Positions 19,657 to 28,086 of a DNA stretch of 36,475 nucleotides are shown one piece after another. This DNA comes from Anaerolineaceae bacterium (GTDB lineage Bacteria > Chloroflexota > Anaerolineae > Anaerolineales > Villigracilaceae). Both the position numbers and the translations under genes were made by a program. Where the stretch lies: NCBI GenBank assembly GCA_009885945.1, contig VFJR01000117.1, positions 1 to 36,475 of the forward strand, read 5' to 3'. The stretch's first letter is position 1. Every line of letters begins with the position of its first letter. Below the pieces are notes generated by a model that worked only from the letters and a program-made list of their open reading frames with translations, was not told where the DNA came from and made no database searches.

Positions 19657-19709
19657 CGTCCCGCAGGTTTAAGTGAATCATTGAGAACTTGCCATAAACC
19701 TGCGGGACG
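19657..19709. repeat. Inverted repeat upstream of the UGA-containing oxidoreductase
   Basis: CGTCCCGCAGGTTT (19657-19670) and AAACCTGCGGGACG (19696-19709) are perfect 14-nt complements around a 25-nt loop. The right arm occurs unchanged at 28054-28067. It ends 17 bases before the ATG at 19727 and lies between divergent genes, so it may affect translation or transcription of either. Confidence 0.75.
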
Positions 19710-19726
19710 ATGTAAAAAGGAAAAAC

Positions 19727-20338
19727 ATGGATATCAAGCTGACGATATTTTCTGATTATATATGACCATGGTGCTATGTCGGCCAGGGTGTGGTTGACTT
19801 ACTGAAAAAGGAACATAACGTGGAGGTAGAGTGGCGTCCATTTTATTTGCGCCCCGATACTCCGCCGGAAGGAATGGAACTGCCTGAGTATATTACACGC
19901 GGGCGGGCAAGCGGTTCTGAAGAACGTTTGCGCCAAATGGCGAATTCGTTTGGATTGGAATTTGTTTCTGTAAATCGGATTTTAAATACGCGCCTTGCAC
20001 ATGAAGCCACTGAATATGCGCGCGTGCACGGCAAGGGCAATGAATTTCATCGAGTTGTATTTTTGAAAGTGTATGCGCAAGGACAAGACATCAGTAAATG
20101 GGATGTATTGCGCGCCGCAGCAATTGAAGTTGGTTTAGATGCAGATGAAATGCAAAACGACGTTGAAGCTGGAAAATATACAGCCTATGTTGCACAGCAA
20201 GTACAGGAAGCGTACCAAATTGGTGTTTCGGGCGTACCAACGTATGTGATCAATGATAAGTATGCGCTGGTGGGCGCGCAGCCTTATGAAGTGTTTAAGA
20301 ATGCGCTGGTACAAATCAAGCTGAAGGAACAGGGATAA
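19727..20338 (+). CDS. FrnE/DsbA-like thiol:disulfide oxidoreductase, candidate selenoprotein (in-frame UGA at codon 13)
   Basis: A 203-residue thioredoxin-fold protein of the FrnE branch of the DsbA family. Starting at the ATG at 19727, supported by AAGGA five bases upstream, the first 12 codons read MDIKLTIFSDYI. Codon 13 is TGA and codons 14-16 are P-W-C, so the active site is U-P-W-C where relatives have CPWCYVG. The rest is intact, with a helical domain (about 60-150) and the cis-proline loop GVSGVPTYVIN (P171). The only in-frame start after the TGA is a GTG at 19790, which would give a protein without the redox motif. A SECIS-like stem-loop follows the TGA. It probably carries out dithiol/disulfide exchange in the cytoplasm, since no signal peptide is seen. 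A single-base sequencing error or recent pseudogene is the alternative. Confidence refers to this extended gene model. Confidence 0.8.
19763..19765 (+). other. Candidate selenocysteine codon (UGA)
   Basis: TGA in frame at codon 13, at the N-terminal nucleophilic position of the UPWC motif. Other genes in the window, such as the one ending at 21321 and the one ending at 32677, use TGA as a true stop, so UGA is not generally reassigned. Confidence 0.8.
19778..19798 (+). promoter_or_regulatory. Candidate bacterial SECIS element
   Basis: GUCGGCCA (19778-19785) and UGGUUGAC (19791-19798) form an 8-bp stem with two central G-U pairs, closing on loop GGGUG (19786-19790). The loop begins 20 bases after the UGA and starts with G. 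This fits the bacterial SECIS model: apical loop roughly 16-37 nt after UGA and a G in the first two loop positions. The spacing is close to that of the E. coli fdhF element. Confidence 0.72.
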
Positions 20339-20805: not shown

Positions 20806-21321
20806 ATGGACCCTCTTAGTATTCTCTTTTGGACATTCATTAAAGTTAATTTATTAAGTACATCAGGTCCTGCTTCTGTGGGCTTATTACACAGCTTGGC
20901 AGTGCCCAACCTTGTCAACGAGAGTCAATTTGTGCAAGCAGTGGCATTATCTTCGGTATTGCCAGGCAGTGATGCATTACAGCTTGCTATGTATATTGGC
21001 TATGCGGTAGCGGGTATTCCGGGCGGGTTAGTTTCTCTAATGGCATCTATTTTGCCGCCCACAGTAATCATCTTGGGCGTGACAATGATCCTGCACCGTA
21101 TCCGTCGTGAAGCATGGGTGAAAAATTTTGTAGAGGGTTTAACGCCCGCAATTTCTGTGCTAATGTTTTTTACGGCTTGGAAAATTTTTGAAAGAGGCGG
21201 CAACACTGGCTGGCAAGGCTGGACAATTGGCATTGTTAGCCTGATCGCTATGTTTTTGGATGCACCTGCCCGTTTTGTTGTGTTAATCGCGGGGATTGTT
21301 GGGGTATTATTTCTCTCATGA
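20806..21321 (+). CDS. Chromate transporter family protein, first half-size subunit
   Basis: A 171-residue membrane protein carrying one chromate-transporter (CHR) domain. Features are FIKVNLLSTSGPASVGLLH near the start, then ESQFVQAVALSSVLPGSDALQLAMYIGY and the ILPPTVIILG segment. Five or six membrane helices are likely. Short-chain CHR proteins work as pairs of unlike halves, and the second half follows with a four-base ATGA overlap. Chromate efflux is the family's known role, but anion specificity is not certain here. The stop is TGA. Confidence 0.88.
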   Translation: MDPLSILFWTFIKVNLLSTSGPASVGLLHSLAVPNLVNESQFVQAVALSSVLPGSDALQLAMYIGYAVAGIPGGLVSLMASILPPTVIILGVTMILHRIRREAWVKNFVEGLTPAISVLMFFTAWKIFERGGNTGWQGWTIGIVSLIAMFLDAPARFVVLIAGIVGVLFLS

Positions 21322-21854
21322 CGCCAACAAAGTTTCAGGTATGGCTTAAATTATTGTGGATGTTTCTCAAGGTAAACTTGCTATCGCCTTCTGGACCTGC
21401 CTCGATCGGCTTGTTATATGATGAAGCCGTTGGCAAGGTAATGACCGAGGAACAATTTGTAGAGGCGGTTGGTCTTTCAAATGTGTTGCCCGGCAGTGAA
21501 GCGCTCAAACTTGCGATGTTTGTTGGCTTCGCCGCAGGAGGGATAGCGGGTGTTTTCACTGCATTACTCGGCGCAACCCTTCCCCCTACAGTGATGATGT
21601 TAGTAGTCGCCGTAATTTTGCAGCAATTTCAAAACGAAGATTGGCTGCAACGATTTGTAATGGGCATGAGTCCTGCCGTTGCAGCGCTCATTTTTGTTGT
21701 AGGCTGGGAACTCCTGCGGGTTAGCGGCGCAAAAAAATTAAATCGCCGCGCGCTGATCATTGGCATCCTTAGCGCGTGCGCATTATGGTTTGATATTCCA
21801 TCCCCGTATGTATTATTAGGTGCGGGCATTTTAGGCGTGATTCTGTATAGATAG
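21318..21854 (+). CDS. Chromate transporter family protein, second half-size subunit
   Basis: A 178-residue CHR-domain protein similar in plan to its upstream partner: FLKVNLLSPSGPASIGLLY, EEQFVEAVGLSNVLPGSEALKLAMFVG and ATLPPTVMMLV. Its start overlaps the partner's stop (ATGA), which suggests translational coupling. The two halves align well with each other, so the pair probably arose by duplication and inserts in antiparallel topology, as proposed for other short-chain pairs. A universal stress protein follows six bases after its stop. Confidence 0.88.
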   Translation: MTPTKFQVWLKLLWMFLKVNLLSPSGPASIGLLYDEAVGKVMTEEQFVEAVGLSNVLPGSEALKLAMFVGFAAGGIAGVFTALLGATLPPTVMMLVVAVILQQFQNEDWLQRFVMGMSPAVAALIFVVGWELLRVSGAKKLNRRALIIGILSACALWFDIPSPYVLLGAGILGVILYR

Positions 21855-28029: not shown

Positions 28030-28086
28030 TAACTGACCTTACGCAATCTAAGGAAACCTGCGGGACGTTCTGCGTAAGGTCAGTTA
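28030..28086. repeat. Inverted repeat with 16-nt arms
   Basis: TAACTGACCTTACGCA (28030-28045) and TGCGTAAGGTCAGTTA (28071-28086) are perfect complements. The loop holds AAACCTGCGGGACG (28054-28067), identical to the right arm of the inverted repeat at 19657-19709. It sits between the SDR stop and the terminator at 27978-28026. Confidence 0.75.

Follow-up and report, generated by a model that had tools for sequence, protein, structure and literature searches.

A frnE-like gene with an in-frame UGA, very probably decoded as selenocysteine, in an Anaerolineaceae genome of the Chloroflexota

The window, i.e., the whole stretch of 36,475 nucleotides analysed here, harbors a frnE-like gene whose reading frame opens with an ATG at 19727 and closes with a TAA at 20336-20338 (Table 1). 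A TGA at codon 13, the single in-frame TGA of this frame, occupies the site of the first cysteine of a CPWC motif. With this codon read as selenocysteine (Sec), the protein has 203 residues and starts with MDIKLTIFSDYI-U-PWCYVG, Cys16 being its sole cysteine apart from the Sec position, as none follows residue 16. A first-pass annotation of the sequence had given this frame, from the ATG through the TGA to the stop, and the coordinates proved exact; it had also placed the TGA at the first cysteine of CPWC, which both the frame and codon 13 of the homologues confirm. Pro171 of the SGVPTY stretch is presumably the cis-proline expected in thioredoxin folds. Without readthrough, the listed open reading frame (ORF) of the same frame encodes 182 amino acids from a GTG start at 19790, in agreement with the earlier remark that termination would leave only a GTG-started protein. 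Mechanical ORF calling hence truncates the gene, and both the start and the active site are lost when recoding is ignored. Among 36 hand-picked main ORFs of the window, 23 stop at TAA, 8 at TAG and 5 at TGA, and past these five TGA the frames stay open for merely 0-36 codons. As the first-pass annotation had noticed, TGA is therefore an ordinary stop elsewhere in the window.

Table 1. Features at and around the frnE-like gene (positions in the window).
Feature	Position	Strand	Remark
Dispersed palindrome of about 55 bp, arms perfect over 15 nt	19657..19709	.	Just upstream of the gene
AAAAGGAA, ribosome-binding-like stretch upstream of the ATG	19715..19722	+	By eye
frnE-like gene, UPWC active site, DsbA-fold oxidoreductase	19727..20338	+	203 codons, TGA read as Sec (very probable)
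In-frame TGA, codon 13	19763..19765	+	Sec (near certain), N-terminal residue of CXXC
Codon 16, TGC, second Cys of UPWC	19772..19774	+	Invariant in 8-row alignment
SECIS-like hairpin, 8 bp, GTCGGCCA/TGGTTGAC	19778..19798	+	Fold, conservation
SGVPTY including Pro171 (Pro codon 20237-20239)	20228..20245	+	Sequence, alignment, model

A scan for sigma-70 promoters and terminators retrieved one promoter-like site, on the minus strand, and no terminator. The palindrome that precedes the gene belongs to the surroundings and not to recoding: a half copy lies at 28054-28067 of the window, and ten further imperfect copies of the genome were retrieved, most of them lying between genes that are unrelated by eye. 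One copy is located just upstream of the selD fragment described below (contig C122), and a role of the palindrome as selenium regulator was considered and rejected, since it is a dispersed repeat with most copies close to unrelated genes (by eye). Further downstream, two adjoining ORFs of 171 and 178 amino acids (20806-21854) resemble by eye a split chromate-transporter pair. The gene neighbourhood gave no clue to the role of the protein in the eight loci viewed; some upstream genes are common to three or four of them (L131, L132, L135 and partly L134), the window not being among these.

FrnE corresponds, as we take it, to COG2761. The window protein matches the Pfam domain DSBA (PF01323) over residues 5-194 (E 2.4e-40) and has only below-cut-off matches in NCBIfam; Chloroflexota copies may thus be mis-annotated, as Pfam reports no more than DSBA and NCBIfam remains below its cut-offs. 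The nearest solved structures by sequence are FrnE of Deinococcus radiodurans (E 2.4e-29), followed by SCO1869 of Streptomyces. An AlphaFold model built from an 8-row alignment reached a mean pLDDT of 91.6 (five models, 65.8-91.6), and FrnE structures fill the first five places of a Foldseek search with this model (TM 0.83-0.86). In the model, the first helix (14-30) begins right after residue 13, and a strand follows closely on Pro171. The chain begins directly at the first strand and no signal peptide is apparent, which suggests a cytosolic location. The protein shares with D. radiodurans FrnE (DR_0659; 5cnw, 5co3, 5coh, 5cp1, 5xwh) both the fold and a similarity over its whole length, whereas the active site is CPWC, with Cys, in D. 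radiodurans and UPWC, with Sec, in the window protein. According to the accessible part of the report on the D. radiodurans protein, this is a cytosolic disulfide reductase whose active site is presumably regenerated by a CXXXXC in its C-terminal tail (239-244), and its mutant is sensitive to cadmium and diamide (PMC8945050). The window protein lacks this tail, ending five residues past the position aligned with residue 219 of D. radiodurans FrnE, so that a different reductant would have to recycle it.

The state of codon 13 was read in homologues at several scales. A search of 301 genomes of the order, among them the source genome, gave 66 matches at E<=1e-20, spread over 63 genomes; the codon was read in 58 of these matches (TGA 48, TGC 10), the eight others being a second copy in G011, with one TGA, and seven matches listed as stop-free. 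Every TGA match of this search holds exactly one TGA and no further internal stop. Two other matches, recorded with two TGA (G573 and G387), were considered as double-Sec proteins and discarded, the second TGA being the terminal stop. A scan of named genomes yielded, for the best 80 of 555 loci, TGA in 27, TGC in 30 and TGT in 23, counts that are no frequencies given that one of the peptide patterns required Cys codons; among these 80 loci, the nearest named FrnE records are metagenome-assembled genomes of Anaerolineales and other Chloroflexi. Another 22 loci of the phylum all present TGA at codon 13, 20 of them having been fetched because a TGA was listed and the two others, from the same search, being TGA-listed as well. 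In the resulting pool of 160 loci, in which the sets overlap (some assemblies are shared with the named records) and these 22 were picked for their TGA, codon 13 is TGA in 97 and TGC or TGT in 63, with no other codon and neither TAA nor TAG (0/160); these totals, too, are no frequencies. The Cys/Sec pairing at this codon that the first-pass annotation had proposed to look for is thus present in all 160 loci, and the frames of the relatives stay open past codon 13, without the downstream decay that it had considered. A TGA arising by chance is excluded, as homologues carry it at the same codon.

Some individual loci deserve mention. L077 (G155:C70), a Cys-form match of 79-83 residues with an internal TAA, is probably a decaying copy. 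The genome G160 holds, besides a close FrnE form, a second and distant FrnE-like gene (L064, G160:C68:88946-90357; 32% identity) with an active-site TGA followed, 34 nt downstream, by a hairpin with an 8-bp stem and a GGTC loop. A record titled Acidobacteria (L145) encodes a FrnE 69% identical to that of the window, with the hairpin string of Chloroflexota; an error in the label of the bin or in the contig is possible.

Downstream of the UGA, the window presents a SECIS-like hairpin that was absent from the first-pass annotation. Its stem (19778-19785/19791-19798) encloses an apical loop GGGTG of 5 nt, G first (19786-19790), with a spacing of 20 nt past the TGA and a minimum free energy (MFE) of -11 kcal/mol. 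Bacterial SECIS elements, as delimited in the accessible text of PMC13188914, have a loop of 3-9 nt, a stem of 4-16 bp, a G in the first two loop positions, a distance of 16-37 nt from the UGA and an MFE <= -7.5 kcal/mol; the hairpin of the window, located inside the coding region, lies within all these limits. Compared with shuffled sequences, the hairpin taken alone exhibits no extra stability (z 0.28), and the support for a SECIS element rests on comparison because a single-sequence fold is uninformative in this respect.

Synonymous sites were compared in 42 distinct coding sequences after removal of one duplicate; 15 loci that were distant or fragmentary had been set aside beforehand. For the 37 distinct Sec forms, which belong to the close clade, synonymous identity in same-residue comparisons amounts to 4009/4251 (94%) in codons 18-24 and to 36731/75367 (49%) from codon 25 onward, and codons 18-24 rank at the top of 163 overlapping seven-codon segments. 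In the five Cys forms, the corresponding values are 23/51 and 348/893. With the loop placed at nt 21-25 after the TGA, at least five of six pairs form in 68 of 85 distinct Sec stretches vs. 8 of 60 Cys stretches. For another ten Sec stretches the best register places the loop at 25-29, and five of these form all six pairs around GGTCT. When only the 18 Sec stretches less than 80% alike are retained, 78 of 108 cells are paired in the main register, a value reached by none of 2000 shuffles, and slid registers give 24-50 paired cells; in 42 Cys stretches, 128 of 252 cells are paired, which is equalled by 224 of 2000 shuffles, with 67-130 in slid registers. The pairing thus persists through sequence change between clades. 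The association has exceptions, as under a loose rule the hairpin is absent in 9 of 86 Sec rows and present in 11 of 60 Cys rows, and four Sec stretches (L062, L065, L241, L244) have no clear hairpin by the rules applied. A tree-corrected test of hairpin vs. Sec gave a median p of 0.25 for the main register and 0.125 for the loose rule, falling short of significance because its 8 supported pairs are too few. L146, a Cys form (TGC) of Leptolinea sp., still shows a large part of the hairpin string, which would fit a late loss of Sec.

The first-pass annotation had also suggested a search for the genes of the Sec machinery, which were recovered in part as complete genes and in part as pieces. The source genome (G000), a fragmented draft of 209 contigs, encodes a whole selA (G000:C55, 548 bits, above cut-off) and a whole selB (G000:C164, 332 bits, cut-off 242), and only contig-end-cut pieces of selC and selD. 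For selC, no match exceeded the cut-off of RF01852 (best 43.3 bits vs. 47), and the ten tRNA-Sec matches of this model in the genome were dismissed, being assigned to Ser, Leu, Arg, Gly or Met by ARAGORN. A 3' half of selC was located at G000:C148:1-62, where 62 bases cut by the contig end are 81% identical to the tRNA-Sec of a relative. The tRNA-Pro(GGG) that lies upstream of selC in the genome G103 has a counterpart at the extreme edge of contig C76, pointing outward. The 5' part of selD, at C122:16668-16914, covers residues 1-83 of a 342-residue query before the contig end; it bears an in-frame TGA of its own and one frame change close to this end, and is preceded by a gene resembling, by eye, the one found before selD in relatives. 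Contig C7, whose synteny with G103 was anchored around tRNA-Ser(CGA), was rejected as selD site, being collinear to within one gene of selD and then carrying other genes.

selA, selC and selD were searched in 14 genomes, G000 included. The three genes score above their cut-offs in 11 of 11 other genomes of the same family and in G019. In G002, selD is present and the match barely over the selC cut-off is a tRNA-Ser by ARAGORN. In these last two genomes, both drafts of 600-640 contigs with TGA forms, selB was not found at E<=1e-65, nor was selA in G002. The selD gene itself has an in-frame TGA in 13 of 13 genomes with an above-cut-off selD match (L108 and the other selD loci). At the same threshold, 235 of the 301 order genomes have selB, its absence elsewhere being weak evidence as at most four candidates were scored per genome. 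It was found in 44 of 46 order genomes with a Sec FrnE vs. 7 of the 17 that have no form other than Cys (p 8e-6, ignoring kinship; for 10 of the 17 the Cys state comes from the codon itself and for the other 7 from a 'no stop' entry).

Three other explanations of the TGA or of the protein were weighed. That it is a true stop, due to a sequencing error or to a decaying pseudogene and leaving at most a shortened protein from the internal GTG, is extremely improbable in our view. The 182-residue ORF does exist and the draft genome is broken into 209 contigs, but the same TGA is present in 97 of 160 loci from many assemblies, TAA and TAG never occur at codon 13, the active site is retained, and TGA matches have one TGA and no other internal stop, the one internal TAA belonging to a Cys match (G155). 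Hardly more credible is the insertion of another amino acid, be it Trp or Gly after a general change of the code or Cys from a special UGA-reading tRNA-Cys. An in-frame TGA alone does not identify the inserted residue, and homologues that lack the TGA have Cys at this site; however, TGA terminates 5 of the 36 main ORFs of the window, the genome contains selA and selB and its relatives a selD with Sec, the SECIS-like hairpin is conserved in the TGA forms, unlike in the Cys forms, and the ten tRNA-like loci examined in the genome all correspond to the ordinary amino acids mentioned above. Code change, pseudogene and error were consequently rejected on the basis of codon 13 in homologues and of the TGA stops in the window.

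Sec could also be inserted in a more specialised enzyme of DsbA fold, of the glutathione transferase kappa or 2-hydroxychromene-2-carboxylate isomerase type. Foldseek matches these groups too (TM about 0.74-0.81, 15-16% identity) and the gene neighbours are uninformative, but FrnE is the best match by both sequence and fold and the UPWC redox motif is retained with its second Cys, while members of these two groups carry Ser at the redox motif. We regard such a specialised function as unlikely.

Altogether, the product of the gene is very probably a cytosolic DsbA-family enzyme of the FrnE type, with a UPWC redox site whose Sec comes from UGA codon 13 under the direction of the hairpin. The suggestion of a likely selenoprotein made by the first-pass annotation is thus supported by the homologues, the conserved hairpin and the sel genes, of which selC and selD are fragmentary here. 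Taken separately, insertion of Sec at codon 13 appears near certain from sequence comparison, and thiol-disulfide exchange by Sec13 and Cys16 is likely, given the motif and the fold. Conservation and the presence of the machinery suggest that SelA, SelB, SelC and SelD would decode the UGA, guided by the hairpin that lies 20 nt after it. In thioredoxin-fold enzymes, the reactive residue attacks a disulfide, a Cys resolves the intermediate and a Pro holds the substrate. By the same chemistry, Sec13 would, as a selenolate, either attack or accept a disulfide, the selenenyl-sulfide would be resolved by Cys16, and the substrate would be held by Pro171. Fold and motif are established by comparison; regarding the substrate and the physiological role, we infer by analogy with the Cys form of D. 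radiodurans that the protein is most likely a cytosolic thiol-disulfide reductase or isomerase acting in oxidative or metal stress.

The family is already known to contain selenoproteins. According to the available excerpts, a Sec 'DsbA-like' protein of COG2761 with a UXXC motif was described in 2005 from nine marine sequences of the Sargasso Sea (PMC1088965), the family was catalogued again (PMC9312934; PMC13188914), and a table has the DsbA-like entries 41 and 45, in columns that are probably organisms and sequences (PMC5029168). Compared by these descriptions, the Sargasso Sea family and the window protein have in common a DsbA-family domain, UXXC, Cys homologues and a bacterial SECIS after the UGA; the former is marine, whereas the latter belongs to an Anaerolineales genome, with relatives in the order and the phylum. 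Partial texts also mention FrnE/DsbA selenoproteins in green algae (PMC6627142) and in animals, including marine ones (PMC3965025; PMC3473315), as well as two Asgard sequences (PMC11227280). By name and description, the algal and marine animal proteins contain Sec like that of the window, but eukaryotic members rely on another kind of SECIS, located in the 3' UTR (PMC13188914, accessible part). For Chloroflexi, the available portion of one survey gives 3 selenoproteins of 3 families (PMC1794560). No report of a Sec FrnE in Chloroflexota was found in the parts of the open-access literature that were searched, and we make no claim of priority; the present analysis adds the spread in Chloroflexota and the Sec/Cys switches.

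A search of 400 genomes of the phylum gave matches at E<=1e-15 in 124; by hand count, about 69 of these have a match with an internal TGA, its position having been read solely in the fetched loci. At least 17 Sec/Cys changes are implied by a quick tree of 146 proteins in which codon 13 was masked, and supported branches force 8 of them (53 of the 143 inner branches of this tree are unsupported). On an even balance, Sec may be the prevailing and perhaps ancestral state of the Chloroflexota branch of FrnE, with repeated Sec/Cys switches accompanied by gain and loss of the hairpin, the distance of which would be near-constant (loop mostly 21-25 nt after the UGA) and the sequence clade-specific. 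If true, these genes would form a natural series for the rise and decay of SECIS elements within coding sequence. Close Sec/Cys pairs, e.g., the Cys form L007 amid Sec neighbours in the tree, would make the benefit of Sec in FrnE testable and also allow the study of SECIS decay following a Sec-to-Cys change.
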